Below are positions 55,742 to 64,000 of a stretch of 64,000 nt of DNA, piece by piece. How positions within the stretch are numbered: the stretch's first letter is position 1; every line of letters begins with the position of its first letter. The position numbers and the translations under genes were made by a program. The DNA is taken from the NCBI GenBank assembly GCA_028821405.1, contig JAPPGK010000024.1:1-64000 (forward strand). Direction: 5' to 3'. Under the pieces are notes generated by a model. The model was not told the DNA's origin. It searched no databases and was given only the letters and a program-made list of their open reading frames with translations. This stretch comes from Gammaproteobacteria bacterium. GTDB lineage: Bacteria > Pseudomonadota > Gammaproteobacteria > Pseudomonadales > Azotimanducaceae.

Positions 55742-56221
55742 ATGCAAAAGGCCATCGACATCGCCGCCCTCCCCCAACTCGAGGGCGGCGCCACCGTGGT
55801 CATTCTTCGATCCAAGTGGTACGCCGACATCGTGGGGTCGTTGCACGGCAAGTGCGTTGAGGTGCTTGAGGCAAAGGGCGTCGACAACATCGTGACCCAC
55901 ACGTTGCCCGGGACGCTGGAGTTTCCGTTCGCGGCCAACGAAGTCGTCGAGACCAATGCCGATGTGGACGCCATCGTCTGCCTCGGCGTGGTGCTCAAGG
56001 GCGACACCTACCACTTCGAGATGATCATCGACGAATGTGTCCGCGGCCTGGGCGAGGTTTCCCGTGCCGCGCGGGTGCCCATCGTCAACGAGGTGCTGCC
56101 CGTGACACGGCTTGCGGACGCCGAGGCCCGCGCAGCCGACGATGAACTCAACAAGGGCATCGAGGCGGCCGCCGCCGCCATCGAGATCATCCATTGGCGC
56201 CGCCAACTCGCGACCCGGTAA
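55742..56221 (+). CDS. ribH: 6,7-Dimethyl-8-ribityllumazine synthase
   Basis: A 159-residue lumazine synthase, the penultimate enzyme of riboflavin synthesis. Signatures: VVILRSKWYADIVGSL, TLPGTLEFPFAANEV, AIVCLGVVLKGDTYHFE (catalytic His) and PIVNEVLPVTRLADAEAR. The substitution of Trp-Tyr for the usual Phe-Asn in the first strand, and the isolation from other rib genes, suggest a RibH2-like isozyme. GTG at 55718 would give eight more residues. Its 3' end overlaps the next gene by 28 bp. Confidence 0.92.
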   Translation: MQKAIDIAALPQLEGGATVVILRSKWYADIVGSLHGKCVEVLEAKGVDNIVTHTLPGTLEFPFAANEVVETNADVDAIVCLGVVLKGDTYHFEMIIDECVRGLGEVSRAARVPIVNEVLPVTRLADAEARAADDELNKGIEAAAAAIEIIHWRRQLATR

Positions 56222-59013
56222 GCCTGCTGCCCAGGCCAACGTCGCTCGAGCCCGGCCCACGCTGGGTGCTGGCGTCGGATCCGAACCGAATCCAAGGCTC
56301 GTGTTCTACACGCCTGATACGCGCGGTGGCGCGGTTGCCGGCGCGGGGCTTAGTCATCGAGTTTCGAGTCGAGCGCGCGACGCGTTCCGTTCCGGGGGTC
56401 GCCGATTCGTACGAATACCGGCTAACGGTGGGCGAGACCGTGACGATTCGGGCCGAGACCGAATGGGGTGCCCTGACGGCGCTGGCCACCCTGACGCAAC
56501 TCGTCGCCGGCGGGGTCCTCGATGTCGCCGAGGTTCACGACGCGCCCCGCTATCCCTGGCGCGGCGTGATGATCGACACGGTCCGGCACTTCATCTCGCT
56601 CGCGACCCTCGAACGAACACTCGATGTGATGGCGTTCTACAAGCTGAACGTCCTTCACCTGCACCTCACCGACGACCAGGGATTCCGGTTCCGTTCCAAC
56701 GCCTACCCGGAACTTGCCAGCGCGGACGCCTATTCGCACGCCGAATTTCGCGATCTCGTCGACTACGCCGCCGACCGTGCGATCCGCGTCGTGCCCGAGC
56801 TTGATGTACCCGGCCATGCCACGAGCTGGCTTGCCGCACACCCGGATTGGGGTGTCGATGGTGTCGTCGGCGTGGAAGGACCCAGTACCCGCTTCGGCGT
56901 ACACGACGTCTGCCTCGACATCGAGAACCCCGAGGTTCGCCATGCCGTCGACACGCTCCTCGGTGAGTTCGCCGACGTGTTCCCCGACGAGTTCGTGCAT
57001 TTCGGCGGGGACGAGGTCGGTCGTGATTGCACGGCGTTCTACCAGCATGTTGTCGAGACGCTCGGCGGATTGGGCAAACGCGCCATGGGCTGGGACGAGT
57101 GCCTGCACGAGGACCTTCGCCAGGACACCGTGATCCAGGCCTGGCGAGGCATAGAGGCCCGGGATGCCGCGTTGCGCGCTGGGCACGACTGCGTGGTGTC
57201 CGCGCCCTACTACCTCGACCTTTTCTATCCGGCGGACGTGCATCACGCCTTCGACCCCGCCACCTCGACCAAGGCCGGCGAGCAACGCCTGGCCCGTCAC
57301 CCCAGCCTTGCCCACGTCCGGGATGGGCTCGCGTGGATGTCGGATTTCGGCGCTTTCCCCGAACTGCCCGAGAGACCGGGCGGCTGCGTCCTTGGTGGCG
57401 AAGCCTGTCTTTGGTCCGAGCTTGTCACGGACGAGTTGCTGGATGCGCGCCTGTGGAGTCGCATGCCGGCGATCGCCGAACGGTTCTGGAACGGCAGCGA
57501 GTCCTCGGATGCCGGGGCGGTCTACGAGAGCGCGGCGGCGACGCGGGGCACCCTCGCCATGCTCGGCACGCTACCCGAGGACCACGCCGCGCTCTTCGAG
57601 GACTACCCGGACCTCGCGCGACTCATCGAGATGGTCGAACCCGTCAAATGGTACCTGCGGCTTCTGGGGGTCGCCGAATACCAACGCCGCGTCAGCGGAG
57701 TGGGAAGTGCAGGAGAGGCGCGACCCTACTCCACGACCACGCCCCTCGACCGGATCGTCGACCGCATTCCGCCGGAGAGCCTCGCCACGCGACGTGCCGC
57801 AGCCGATCTGGCCGAGGGCGTGTCCATGGAACGGTGGATCGCCGGCTGGCGGAAGCAACGCGAGGCACTCGCGCGGCATCCCGATCTAGTAGGCGAGTTG
57901 CACAGCGTCTCGGACGCACTTGTCGGGGTCGCCGACTTCCTTGCCGGGAAGGCGAACGTCGACATCGGTTCCCTCGGCGGGCCATTCGGCGAATACCTGC
58001 TGCCGATCGCCGATGTCGCGGCAAACCACGAACCCGAACGCGCCACCACCATCCGCCCGGTCCTCGACGCCTGGAACGTTGCGTCAAGCGCCCTACGAAC
58101 CATCGACGCCGGCCACATCAACGACACCTACCTGGTCGATGATCGCTACGTGCTTCAGCGCCTCAACCACTCGGTCTTCCAACATCCCGAAGCGCTCATG
58201 CGCAATCTCGACAAGGCCATCGCCCACGAGGGCGGCAAATTGCTCCTCGCCCCGATCGCGACGAGGCAAGGCGCACCGTACGGCGTCGATGCAAGCGGGG
58301 AGATCTGGCGCTTGTTTCCCCACCTGCCGTCGCGGAACTTCCAGAACCTGCCGGATGAACTCCTTGGGCCCGCCGGAGGCGCGTTCGGCGCCTTCCTCGC
58401 CACCTTTGCGGACTTCGCGGGCGAACTCGAACCCGTGATCGAAGGCTTCCACGACCTTGGCTTCTACCTCACACGCCTCGACGCCGCGCCGCCGGGGGAC
58501 GTGGGCGCCACCTTGGACGAGATCAACAAACTCCGAGCCCAGTTCCGGCCCGGCGAGGCGGAGCGCGTAATCCACGGCGACTGCAAGGTGAACAACCTGC
58601 TCTTCCATCCGACGCGAGACACGGTCACGGCGATCATCGACCTCGACACCTTGATGCTGGGCGACCCGGCCTGGGACTTCGGCGACCTCGTGCGCTCTGC
58701 ATTCGCGGGTAGTGAAGAGACGGCGGCGGCTGCCGAGTTCTCGCGGTCCCGATTCGAGCCCTTGAGCAAGGGGTTCTTCTCCGCGTTCGGCCCGGTGGAC
58801 GATACGCGCCGCTACGCCGCGGCACCCGCCTACATGAGCTTCATGCTGTCGGTGCGGTTTCTCACCGACCACTTAGAGGGTGACGTCTACTTCAAGGTGG
58901 GCAGACGCGGCGACAACCTCGCCCGCGCCCGATCGCAACTCGACCTCGCCAAGCGGTTCATGGCCGTCGGACCCGAGATGGCAGGCATCCTCGAAGACAT
59001 CCAGCGGTCGTAG
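56194..59013 (+). CDS. GH20 hexosaminidase fused to N-acetylhexosamine kinase
   Basis: A 939-residue bifunctional protein. Residues about 1-450 are a family 20 beta-N-acetylhexosaminidase (PRYPWRGVMIDTVRHF, LTDDQGFRF, ELDVPGHATSW, then HFGGDEVGRD with the Asp273-Glu274 pair of substrate-assisted catalysis). A helical linker follows to about 610. Residues about 620-935 are an aminoglycoside phosphotransferase-fold sugar kinase like NahK: GHINDTYLV, YVLQRLNHSVF, VIHGDCKVNNLLF (Asp796) and DLDTLMLGDPAWDFGDLVRS. There is no signal peptide, so hydrolysis and 1-phosphorylation would both be cytoplasmic. TTG start inside ribH. Confidence 0.92.
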   Translation: MAPPTRDPVSLLPRPTSLEPGPRWVLASDPNRIQGSCSTRLIRAVARLPARGLVIEFRVERATRSVPGVADSYEYRLTVGETVTIRAETEWGALTALATLTQLVAGGVLDVAEVHDAPRYPWRGVMIDTVRHFISLATLERTLDVMAFYKLNVLHLHLTDDQGFRFRSNAYPELASADAYSHAEFRDLVDYAADRAIRVVPELDVPGHATSWLAAHPDWGVDGVVGVEGPSTRFGVHDVCLDIENPEVRHAVDTLLGEFADVFPDEFVHFGGDEVGRDCTAFYQHVVETLGGLGKRAMGWDECLHEDLRQDTVIQAWRGIEARDAALRAGHDCVVSAPYYLDLFYPADVHHAFDPATSTKAGEQRLARHPSLAHVRDGLAWMSDFGAFPELPERPGGCVLGGEACLWSELVTDELLDARLWSRMPAIAERFWNGSESSDAGAVYESAAATRGTLAMLGTLPEDHAALFEDYPDLARLIEMVEPVKWYLRLLGVAEYQRRVSGVGSAGEARPYSTTTPLDRIVDRIPPESLATRRAAADLAEGVSMERWIAGWRKQREALARHPDLVGELHSVSDALVGVADFLAGKANVDIGSLGGPFGEYLLPIADVAANHEPERATTIRPVLDAWNVASSALRTIDAGHINDTYLVDDRYVLQRLNHSVFQHPEALMRNLDKAIAHEGGKLLLAPIATRQGAPYGVDASGEIWRLFPHLPSRNFQNLPDELLGPAGGAFGAFLATFADFAGELEPVIEGFHDLGFYLTRLDAAPPGDVGATLDEINKLRAQFRPGEAERVIHGDCKVNNLLFHPTRDTVTAIIDLDTLMLGDPAWDFGDLVRSAFAGSEETAAAAEFSRSRFEPLSKGFFSAFGPVDDTRRYAAAPAYMSFMLSVRFLTDHLEGDVYFKVGRRGDNLARARSQLDLAKRFMAVGPEMAGILEDIQRS

Positions 59014-60857: not shown

Positions 60858-61497
60858 CGTCCACCGGCGGCGACCCTTCGCCTTGGGACCCCAGAACTCC
60901 CTCAGCCTCGCTGCGTTCGCCAAACACCTCTTTCCTGACCGCTTCGGCGACATCGCAATACTGCGCCTTGGACTTCGTCTTCCGGTAGCCGTCGTAGATG
61001 TAGGCGGCGGTTCCAACGTACTCGGGGGTTCGCAGTCGATGGAAAGTGAACTCGACGGTCCCTAGTCGAGGAGTTGGGTACTTGTCCGTCAACCTCTTCG
61101 CCGTCAGCAGTTCGTACATTCGGTCGTCATCGTTTCTGACAAGGAAGTGAGCGCGGTACGCGCACTCGGGCAGTCCCCCGCCCGTGGTCACGACTCGCCG
61201 TCCTTCCGATCGGGAATCCGTGTAACCATCGTGGTAGACGTGCACGCTATGTAGCCAGTCCGTATTCCGTCTATCCCTGACATTGATGCTATAGCTGAAG
61301 TGGGAACCACGGTATGACCCGGTATTGGTGTAGTTCGCAAAGACGAAGTCGCCCACGCCATCGCCATTCAGATCTATCTCCAATTGCCTCGGACCCTCGA
61401 GACTGATCACCTCTGGCGGGTCGCACCACGAGGTGGGAGCGACGGTTGCCAACGCCAGGCACAAGGTGATCACAGGCATTCTACGCATCGGATTCAT
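60850..61497 (-). CDS. Secreted protein with an FG-GAP-like calcium motif
   Basis: A 215-residue hypothetical. The signal peptide is PVITLCLALATVAPTSWC. LEIDLNGDGVGDFVFANY is an FG-GAP/calcium-binding-like strand pair. The rest is not assignable. A Cys pair (ECAYRAHF, QYCDVAEAV) could form a disulfide. The ATG at 61497 overlaps the upstream stop (ATGA), and its stop overlaps the dioxygenase start. Confidence 0.75.
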   Translation of the reverse strand: MNPMRRMPVITLCLALATVAPTSWCDPPEVISLEGPRQLEIDLNGDGVGDFVFANYTNTGSYRGSHFSYSINVRDRRNTDWLHSVHVYHDGYTDSRSEGRRVVTTGGGLPECAYRAHFLVRNDDDRMYELLTAKRLTDKYPTPRLGTVEFTFHRLRTPEYVGTAAYIYDGYRKTKSKAQYCDVAEAVRKEVFGERSEAEGVLGSQGEGSPPVDDD

Positions 61498-61811
61498 CCC
61501 CTCGGGTCACGCCCACCCGTGGCTTCGCCGGTTTGCGCGTCGCAAACGAGTTTCTCGAAGAAGAACTCGTATTTGAGGTAGCCCGTCCTGAACTCTTCGC
61601 CCACGCCGTGATCGAGGAGCGGCGAAGCCTGGATCAGACGCCAACCATCCTGCAACGCCCCAAGCCCCGTTTCGTAGGGCGGTTCGTCCGCATCTCCAGA
61701 CATGTGCCGCTCCCGACCCGTACCGTCGTAGACGGCCCAAGCCACGACCGCAGAATCGAGCGCGGAATTGCGCAGGTAGAGGACAAGCACCTGCTGGCGT
61801 TGCGTCGTCAC
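61494..61811 (-). CDS. Small protein of unknown function after the peroxiredoxin
   Basis: About 105 residues (QRQQVLVLYLRNSALDSAVV near the start; GALQDGWRLIQASPLL and KYEFFFEKLVCD later). I recognise no family. The pattern of strands, Tyr/Trp content and codon use support real coding. The only acceptable start is the GTG at 61811, 24 bp after the peroxiredoxin stop; earlier in-frame codons are not starts. The stop overlaps the next gene. Co-transcription with the peroxiredoxin is likely. Confidence 0.7.
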   Translation of the reverse strand: MTTQRQQVLVLYLRNSALDSAVVAWAVYDGTGRERHMSGDADEPPYETGLGALQDGWRLIQASPLLDHGVGEEFRTGYLKYEFFFEKLVCDAQTGEATGGRDPRG

Positions 61812-61834: not shown

Positions 61835-62299
61835 CTACGCGCCCTGCAAAGTCCTGAGCGCTTGAAGCGTCGCCGCCGGATCGGGCAAGACGCCCTGAAA
61901 CGCTTCCGCATGACGAACCACGCCGTCGGGATCGATGATCGTCAAGGTGCGGTTCACGATTCCCGCGGCCTCGTTGAAGATGCCAAGCGACCTGGCCGCC
62001 GCACCATGGGGCCAGAAGTCTGACAAGAGCGGATGGCGAATCCCGCCCAGGGCCGCCGACCACGCGCGGAGCGCCGGGGCGGAGTCGACGCTCAAGCCAA
62101 CGAGGACGGCACCCGAGTCCGTGAACTGCTTCAACGCACGGTTGAAGTTCGCAGCCTGGTTGCTTCAGCCGCCGGTGAACGCCAGCGGGAAAGTGTGCAG
62201 TACGACCCATTGGCTTCCCCTGAACCCGGCCAGGCTGACCTCCTCGCCCTCGTGGCTTCTCAGCGTGAAATCCGGGGCGACGTCTCCGATTGCGACCAT
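61835..62299 (-). CDS. Probable selenocysteine peroxiredoxin (in-frame TGA at Sec45)
   Basis: A 154-residue AhpE/BCP-like peroxiredoxin read from the ATG at 62299 through one in-frame TGA to the TAG at 61835. The start has GGGAG seven bases upstream. VAIGDVAPDFTLRSHEGEEV and VVLHTFPLAFTGG-U-SNQ match the family; the TGA (62165-62167) falls exactly on the peroxidatic Cys of PxxxTxxC (P38, T42, U45). NRTLTIIDPDG carries the conserved Arg. The whole frame has no cysteine, so without Sec it could not act as a thiol peroxidase. Normal family length both before and after the TGA argues against a random nonsense mutation. Reads as 1-Cys-type. SelA/B/C/D are outside the window. Confidence 0.82.
62129..62147 (-). 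promoter_or_regulatory. Bacterial SECIS-like hairpin after the TGA
   Basis: On the coding (minus) strand CTTCAAC-CGTGC-GTTGAAG is a perfect 7-bp stem with a 5-nt loop containing G. It starts 17 nt after the TGA, and the flanking GAA/TTC can extend it across a 3-nt bulge (CAG). Bacterial SECIS elements lie within the coding sequence at about this distance and have short apical loops with G. It is a candidate SelB-binding hairpin. Confidence 0.6.
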
Positions 62300-62365
62300 C
62301 GCGTCTCTCCCGTTGGTGTGACGTCAAATCAGCATACACCACCGCCCCGAAGGCACCACCGCCTC

Positions 62366-62562
62366 GAAGGACACCCACCGGGGGAAGGGACCACCTCGAA
62401 GGGACACCCACCGGGGGAAGCACCGCCTCGAAGACCACCTCGGGGCCACCTCGAAGGGACACCCACCGGGGCACCGCATCGAGAAAGCCCGACGGGACGC
62501 CCACCCGGGCGGAAGCCCGCAGGGACACCCACCGGGAAGGGCCCGAAGGGACACCCACCAAG
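62366..62562. repeat. GC-rich degenerate tandem repeat
   Basis: At least six copies of a unit close to AAGGGACACCCACCGGGG, separated by variable spacers, lie between the peroxiredoxin and the TonB-C gene. Two of the units recur in the second copy near 63640-63680. The units carry a short internal palindrome tendency (CCCACC/GGTGGG not perfect). The repeat may be a recombination hot-spot. Confidence 0.75.
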
Positions 62563-62884
62563 GGCTCGAATCGGCCCAGATTCCGGTATCGTGTCCACGA
62601 TGTTGAGAGTCCTTGCGAAACCCGCCTTGGCGGTCGTGCTATTGGCCCTCGTCGGCTGCGCCTCGACGGGGCGACCCCCGCAGTTCATCGGCGGCGCAGA
62701 CCTCGTCTATCCCACCGACGCCAAGGCAAACGGTGTCGAGGGGCGGGTGGTCGTGCGCTACGACGTCACGGTGGCGGGTACCGTCGCCAATGCCGTTGTC
62801 ATCGAATCCGAGCCGCCGGGGATATTCGACGACGCGGCACTCGCCGCCGTGCGATCCTGGCGTTTCCGCCCGATGGTGGTACAC
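62510..62884. repeat. Direct repeat, copy 1 (375 bp, identical to window end)
   Basis: Bases 62510-62884 are identical to 63626-64000, at an offset of 1116 bp. The copy contains the last repeat units and most of the TonB-C lipoprotein gene. Perfect identity means a very recent event or an assembly artefact. Confidence 0.95.
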
Positions 62885-62986
62885 GGCGAGGTGGTCGCCG
62901 CACCCATGCGGGTCAGCGAGCTTGTCTTCCGCTTGGGCGAGAGCGCTTACGACGACTTGCCGGTCCCGGCGAGGGACGACTCGTAA
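62600..62986 (+). CDS. TonB C-terminal domain lipoprotein
   Basis: A 128-residue protein. Lipobox LVGC (Cys20) after a hydrophobic segment. The remainder is a TonB C-terminal domain: YPTDAKANGVEGRVVVRYDV, TVANAVVIESEPPGIFDDAA and VRSWRFRPMVVHGEVV. There is no proline-rich spacer and no inner-membrane anchor of a classical TonB, so it is unlikely to transduce energy by the usual route. The start ATG lies just after GTGTCCACG. A second, identical partial copy is at the window end. Confidence 0.88.
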   Translation: MLRVLAKPALAVVLLALVGCASTGRPPQFIGGADLVYPTDAKANGVEGRVVVRYDVTVAGTVANAVVIESEPPGIFDDAALAAVRSWRFRPMVVHGEVVAAPMRVSELVFRLGESAYDDLPVPARDDS

Positions 62987-63173: not shown

Positions 63174-63625
63174 TTAAAGCGGACCTGCGGGCGAGCCCGC
63201 GAAAATGGGTTGGCGGGCCGCGTAGCCCGTAACCGCCTCCACGGCCTTCGCCGCGCGCAGCAGAAAGGCATCCTCGCGAAGCGGCGCGATGAGCTGGGCA
63301 CCCACCGGAAGGCCGTTCTTGAAACCCGCGGGTAGCGACAGCGCCGGGCAGCCTGTCACCGTGATCCAGCTACAGGACTCCATCCACTCGATGTAGGTGG
63401 ACATCCGTTTCCCCGCCACTTCCCGCACCCAGTCGGTGGCGATGTCGAACGGCTGTACCTGGGTCGTCGGGCCAATCAGGAGGTCTACGTCCGCGAAGAA
63501 ACCGGCAACCTGCGCCACCAGGGCGGCACGCGCCGGATAGACCCAGTCGTAGTCGGCGACGGTCAGTTCGAGCCCGGCGTCCAGGTTCCACCGGATGGTG
63601 TCCTTGAGCTCCGCCTTCTCGGAAT
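63174..63625 (-). pseudogene. Amidase, C-terminal part only
   Basis: About 150 codons of the end of an amidase-signature-family enzyme: FADVDLLIGPTTQVQPFDI, SWITVTGCPALSLPAGF and GLPVGAQLIAPLREDAFLLR are family blocks of the C-terminal third. The Ser-Ser-Lys catalytic region is missing. Homology stops at the edge of the direct repeat, so the gene was cut by the duplication or mis-joined in assembly. Confidence 0.85.
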
Positions 63626-64000
63626 CGGAAGCCCGCAGGGACACCCACCGGGAAGGGCCCGAAGGGACACCCACCAAGGGCTCGAATCGGCCCAGATTCC
63701 GGTATCGTGTCCACGATGTTGAGAGTCCTTGCGAAACCCGCCTTGGCGGTCGTGCTATTGGCCCTCGTCGGCTGCGCCTCGACGGGGCGACCCCCGCAGT
63801 TCATCGGCGGCGCAGACCTCGTCTATCCCACCGACGCCAAGGCAAACGGTGTCGAGGGGCGGGTGGTCGTGCGCTACGACGTCACGGTGGCGGGTACCGT
63901 CGCCAATGCCGTTGTCATCGAATCCGAGCCGCCGGGGATATTCGACGACGCGGCACTCGCCGCCGTGCGATCCTGGCGTTTCCGCCCGATGGTGGTACAC
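63626..64000. repeat. Direct repeat, copy 2
   Basis: Identical to 62510-62884. It is cut by the window end, so its full length is unknown. Confidence 0.95.
63716..64000 (+). CDS. TonB-C lipoprotein, second copy (partial)
   Basis: The same start, lipobox and TonB-C domain as the gene at 62600, 95 codons long to the window edge. It is identical in sequence to the first copy as far as visible. Confidence 0.85.
   Translation, partial: MLRVLAKPALAVVLLALVGCASTGRPPQFIGGADLVYPTDAKANGVEGRVVVRYDVTVAGTVANAVVIESEPPGIFDDAALAAVRSWRFRPMVVH

Follow-up and report, generated by a model that had tools for sequence, protein, structure and literature searches.

Does a reading frame broken by a single TGA encode one intact peroxiredoxin, with selenocysteine at the broken position? 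The question is raised by a minus-strand gene in a stretch of 64,000 nt from contig JAPPGK010000024.1 (assembly GCA_028821405.1), which belongs to a Gammaproteobacteria bacterium of the Azotimanducaceae. This whole stretch is called the window here, and all coordinates without a locus label are window positions. An earlier note made on the same DNA had proposed a selenocysteine (Sec) peroxiredoxin hidden by the in-frame TGA. From sequence comparison, we consider it very probable that the gene (61835..62299, minus strand, 154 codons plus TAG) is intact and codes for an AhpE-type 1-Sec peroxiredoxin, with codon 45 (TGA, 62165..62167) specifying selenocysteine at the catalytic site. The assignment to the AhpE subfamily, the hairpin 3' of the TGA and the co-occurrence test with selA go beyond the earlier note.

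Reading frame, residue 45 and host machinery

The frame begins with ATG at 62299, preceded by a Shine-Dalgarno-like GGAGAG (62305..62310, minus strand), and ends with the TAG at 61835; its sole interruption is the TGA at 62167-62165. The readthrough product has 154 amino acids and no cysteine apart from position 45. Its active-site motif is P38-LAF-T42-GG-U45, that is, PxxxTxxU within the AhpC-TSA domain, and the Pfam AhpC-TSA match runs across the TGA (residues 4-130, E 2.8e-31). TGA is an ordinary stop in the window, ending 14 of 32 non-overlapping open reading frames (ORFs) of at least 200 amino acids, which were chosen mechanically and are not annotated genes. The start, Shine-Dalgarno, stop, single TGA codon, product length, absence of another cysteine, peroxiredoxin sequence on both sides and normal use of TGA as a stop had all been read by the earlier note, and each was borne out.

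Residue 45 was compared across 129 fetched loci, namely those with an alignment spanning it. The column held cysteine in 88 loci and a stop in 41 (34 distinct genes), every stop being TGA; the occurrence of nothing but cysteine or TGA was what the earlier note had named as support from homologues, and places the TGA at the peroxidatic position, as it had claimed. The loci are no census: one of their sources was cut to the best 80 of 551 confirmed places, and the order sample contributed 27 of the 88 Cys loci, which are peroxiredoxins at a greater distance.

The selenocysteine machinery that the host was expected to encode was found above curated cut-offs in its genome (4.77 Mb, 122 contigs, 97.56% complete). 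One tRNA-Sec match exceeded the gathering score (71.6 bits, cut-off 47), and ARAGORN called a tRNA-Sec with anticodon tca at the same place. Nine weaker matches were present in the host, and matches occurred in all 14 control genomes (over the cut-off in 5), so that only the top match was counted. For selA (517.3, cut-off 267.9), selB (383.2, cut-off 242.25) and selD (251.9, cut-off 125) there was one match each over the cut-off; weaker selB and selD matches fell below it. On contig C60, selA, selB and the tRNA-Sec gene are adjacent to one another. The selD frame is 725 amino acids long and looks like a fusion of an oxidoreductase with the Cys form of SelD; Ndh-SelD fusions are mentioned in PMC2398784. 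Together with the Cys/TGA column and the use of TGA as a stop, these genes support the selenoprotein reading of the earlier note, and no result that refutes it was seen.

A search of 49 genomes gave selA over the cut-off in all 20 that have a TGA gene and in 9 of the 29 that have a Cys gene. With the host genome added, the Fisher test gave p 2e-7, which is no clean probability because the rows are related and hand-picked. Within the family the test says little, since 163 of 200 genomes have selA over the cut-off.

The codons 3' of the TGA are under purifying selection. The ratio of non-synonymous to synonymous substitution rates (dN/dS) over 85 of these codons was 0 to 0.15 in 11 of 11 pairs, hand-picked among 21 genes of the window gene's clade; some dS values are above 1 and therefore rough, and the stretch includes the hairpin described below. 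In most pairs, dN before and after the TGA was of the same order. The low ratio downstream indicates that this part is maintained as protein.

The hairpin downstream of the TGA

A putative bacterial selenocysteine insertion sequence (SECIS) hairpin lies at 62129..62147 on the minus strand. It consists of a 7-bp consensus stem (62147-62141 with 62135-62129) and a 5-nt loop, CGUGC (62140-62136), which is 24 nt downstream of the TGA. The published model of the bacterial SECIS gives a loop of 3-9 nt, an upper stem of 4-16 bp, a G in the first two loop positions, a distance of 16-37 nt from the UGA and a minimum free energy (MFE) of at most -7.5 kcal/mol (PMC13188914). The stem, the 5-nt loop with G second and then U, and the spacing of the window hairpin are inside these limits, and so is the MFE of the region, -11.8 kcal/mol.

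The hairpin was recognized mainly by its conservation. In 12 clade genes with protein identity down to about 53%, every base of codons +7 to +11 after the TGA was identical, and synonymous identity was 0.53 before this region and 0.48 after it. Of 109 seven-codon windows, the one from +5 to +11 ranked highest, with a synonymous identity of 0.97 against a median of 0.51. An identical 17-mer, TTCAACCGTGCGTTGAA, occurred in 23 of 25 distinct clade genes; the other two (L139 and L148) differ in the last loop base only, and the six inner stem pairs are identical in all 25, silent positions included. Constraint on the protein leaves the frozen silent positions unexplained; a function of the RNA explains them. 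The exact 17-mer was found within 60 nt in none of the 88 Cys homologues, and the sequence at the hairpin position is different in the nine distinct TGA genes that do not belong to the clade. Elsewhere in the host genome, a search allowing up to 3 mismatches gave two further places, neither starting with TGA.

The machinery, the hairpin and its conservation suggest how the gene would be expressed. SelB, together with Sec-tRNA(Sec), would bind the hairpin that closely follows the UGA, and translation would continue with selenocysteine as residue 45 instead of terminating. By the precedent of the peroxiredoxin family, the selenolate, beside Pro38, Thr42 and Arg117, would attack a peroxide and become a selenenic acid, with release of water or an alcohol. 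The protein lacks a resolving cysteine, so that the selenenic acid would have to be reduced by an outside thiol, most likely glutathione or a thioredoxin-fold protein. Selenocysteine may have some advantage over cysteine here. The family allows its Sec and Cys forms to be set directly side by side.

Subfamily, distribution and rival explanations

By both sequence and fold, the window protein is nearest to AhpE among solved peroxiredoxins. The first 7 of 60 matches listed in the sequence comparison had E values of 3.5e-32 to 3.6e-31, and the next 3.5e-15. These 7 entries are titled AhpE, 1-Cys peroxiredoxin, in the Foldseek listing, and Rv2238c/MT2298 or AhpC/TSA family protein in the sequence listing. 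The AlphaFold2 model, for which 23 proteins were aligned (17 from TGA genes, 6 with Cys) and Cys was placed at position 45, was one confident domain with a mean pLDDT of 97.1. The top 12 Foldseek rows were all AhpE chains (TM 0.88-0.93, identity 38-41%). In the 23 aligned proteins, R117 was invariant, and P38 and T42 were present in at least 90%. Peroxiredoxins comprise six subfamilies including AhpE and share the motif Pxxx(T/S)xxC; reduction by mycothiol or mycoredoxin is given as a feature of AhpE (PMC8945050). AhpE-type enzymes have Tyr or Phe at the place of the active-site His of the Prx6 type (PMC12697902), and in the window protein Phe37 adjoins Pro38. Among the 14 NCBIfam models that matched, none was over its cut-off, the Sec families among them included (PrxU 56 vs. 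270, Prx-SUH 33 vs. 298). The PrxU model represents one subfamily only, and the protein was therefore filed under the wider family of TxxU peroxiredoxins and not under PrxU.

At E 1e-25, matches were found in 23 of 200 genomes of the host's own family (22 of 199 without the host). Each match spanning residue 45 has one TGA, and the sole match without a TGA covers residues 71-152 only; at this threshold, the family yielded no Cys form. The gene of one of the 23 genomes (L150, from G423) has 40% identity and does not fall within the window's clade. In the class sample, the host genome was the sole match among 369 at E 1e-25. In the order sample, at the looser threshold of 1e-10, 133 of 293 genomes matched; the matches listed from outside the clade were 28-42% identical and mostly without an in-frame stop. 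Two distant peroxiredoxin matches have one in-frame TGA each, G076:C25:31600-31971 (33%) and G143:C40:15281-15724 (31%). A partial gene copy without the TGA-bearing half, covering residues 71-152 only, was observed at L062 2066-2311.

The tree contained 119 rows, after 10 had been dropped as duplicates or as shorter than 115 residues. Within it, the window's clade (24 rows) formed a firm Sec group (support 100/99). Deeper forks were weak, including the one that joins this group to other Sec and Cys lineages (82/92), which is placed next to the actinobacterial Cys group and not within it. The distribution of Sec and Cys needs three changes, at least two of them forced by well-supported branches. 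One clade gene, L054, is on a contig binned as Dehalococcoidia and forms a long branch beside a gene of the host's family (99/88); its placement reflects either gene transfer or a binning error. It is conceivable, and we put it forward tentatively as somewhat less than an even chance, that a separate selenoenzyme subfamily, so far undescribed, exists among the AhpE-type peroxiredoxins. Its clade, present in gamma- and betaproteobacteria and on this one Dehalococcoidia-binned contig, would then carry a nearly frozen SECIS hairpin as one recoding signal kept with the gene and perhaps passed between phyla.

Several observations weigh against an intact selenoprotein gene with a SECIS hairpin. The gene is patchy in its family (23 of 200 genomes), and one of its 23 carriers (G467, 71% complete) gave only a weak selA match, E 2.8e-8. 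The window loop ends in C and C, which are unpaired, whereas the usual published loop pattern pairs them (PMC13188914). Shuffled sequences folded as well as the hairpin region (z 0.01). When 51 nt were folded from each of the 25 clade genes, 18 had the hairpin in their minimum-energy structure, and 18 reached -7.5 kcal/mol. Folding energy alone thus gives no support for the hairpin, hence our reliance on conservation. Covariation was slight: of the seven pairs, the outer one alone had changed on both sides, in 2 of the 11 distinct rows. By the number of pairs with such a double change, 155 of 500 shuffles did as well; by the covariation score, 6 of 500 did. Over the 25 genes, the outer pair was C-G in 16, U-G in 3, U-A in 2 and unpaired in 4, while the other six never vary and so cannot covary.

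These points have to be set beside three other explanations. Had a Cys codon turned into TGA in a dead gene, or been miscalled, a patchy distribution and a relative's partial copy without the 5' half (L062) would be in keeping with it; yet the same TGA stands in 34 distinct genes, in none of which is it TAA or TAG, which makes a sequencing error very unlikely, and the low dN/dS 3' of the TGA in all 11 pairs and the Sec machinery of the host speak against a pseudogene as well. We regard decay or error as the least credible of the three, with hardly any probability left to it. UGA is read otherwise in some organisms, and here too it might stand for an amino acid of the ordinary set (Trp, Cys or Gly) and not for Sec. 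Such reassignment is highly improbable, given that TGA terminates 14 of the 32 long ORFs of the window, that this column is cysteine in all 88 fetched homologues without TGA and, again, that the host has the Sec machinery.

The TGA might also deliberately end a short product, with the downstream part translated separately from an internal start, for which a TTG-started frame of 99 amino acids at 62134 is available. Each piece would then lack the active-site residue or the remainder of the fold, the AlphaFold2 model is one confident domain, and the conserved hairpin would need another explanation; we give such a split gene as slight a chance as reassignment. A selenocysteine codon within an intact AhpE-type gene is thus by far the preferred reading. 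A gene caller for which every TGA is a stop would cut the gene short or overlook it. The finding points to the use of selenocysteine among AhpE-type enzymes, and the hairpin, with its unusual conservation, lends itself to testing what the SelB of this lineage recognizes.

Neighbourhood, further selenoproteins and known systems

Neighbouring frames were compared over 21 Sec loci (the 40 largest clusters). Most were confined to close relatives, or were out-of-frame or antisense. One frame, presumably a short-chain dehydrogenase, was common to 8 of the 21 loci; it stands at scattered distances and on both strands, and for this reason no operon partner is proposed. The frame downstream of the window gene (61497-61811) had no Pfam match. 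The other end of the neighbourhood contains a perfect direct duplication of 375 bp (62510-62884 and 63626-64000), the second copy of which reaches the window end. The first copy is within a frame (62591-62983) with a TonB C-terminal domain (PF03544, E 6.3e-19). An amidase (PF01425) at 63174-63677 is represented by its C-terminal part only; the related frame in L048 and L049 has 465 amino acids. Tandem repeats of the GGGACACCCACC type were seen at 62336-62570 and 63631-63686, and their core, GGACACCCACC, has 7 copies on the plus strand of the window and none on the minus strand. Farther away, a frame of 939 amino acids (56194-59013) combines two domains, one of glycoside hydrolase family 20 and one of an APH-type phosphotransferase.

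The host genome has 25 AhpC-TSA matches, and 3 of them have an in-frame TGA: the window gene and two further predicted selenoproteins, with W-U-PFC (L155 1501-1881) and W-U-PYC (L165 1501-1863). Its sole SelW-like match also has one TGA, in CTS-U (L172 1501-1701). Published lists of selenoprotein families include the UxxC Prx-like and the CxxU SelW-like proteins (PMC13188914, PMC9312934). With three other predicted selenoproteins within the two families examined, selenium-based redox chemistry may be general in this host. None of the titles that a search of the open-licence literature gave for selenocysteine in sponge symbionts was on this subject.

Sec peroxiredoxins of the TxxU type are an established family, first reported from Eubacterium acidaminophilum (PMC13188914, PMC9312934), and 43 were counted in the Sargasso set and 253 in the GOS set. 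No description of a Sec AhpE was found in the parts of the open-licence literature searched for AhpE with selenocysteine or selenoprotein, and AhpE is unmentioned in the main text of the selenium surveys searched for the term and of the Sargasso paper. AhpE-type members may already be among the marine TxxU sets, for which no division by subfamily was seen, and the window gene is therefore classed with the known Sec peroxiredoxins. It shares with them the peroxiredoxin domain (PF00578), the motif PxxxTxxU and, by prediction, Sec in place of the peroxidatic Cys (PMC13188914), but the PrxU type sequence is placed under COG1225 (Bcp) in a 2022 review (PMC9312934), whereas the window protein is nearest to AhpE. 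With AhpE (Rv2238c) it has in common the fold, the length, the FPLAFTG active site and the lack of a resolving cysteine. It differs from AhpE in its predicted Sec for Cys at position 45, with TGG-U in place of TGI-C, in an overall identity of 38-41%, and in its origin, the relatives of the window host being titled Gammaproteobacteria.
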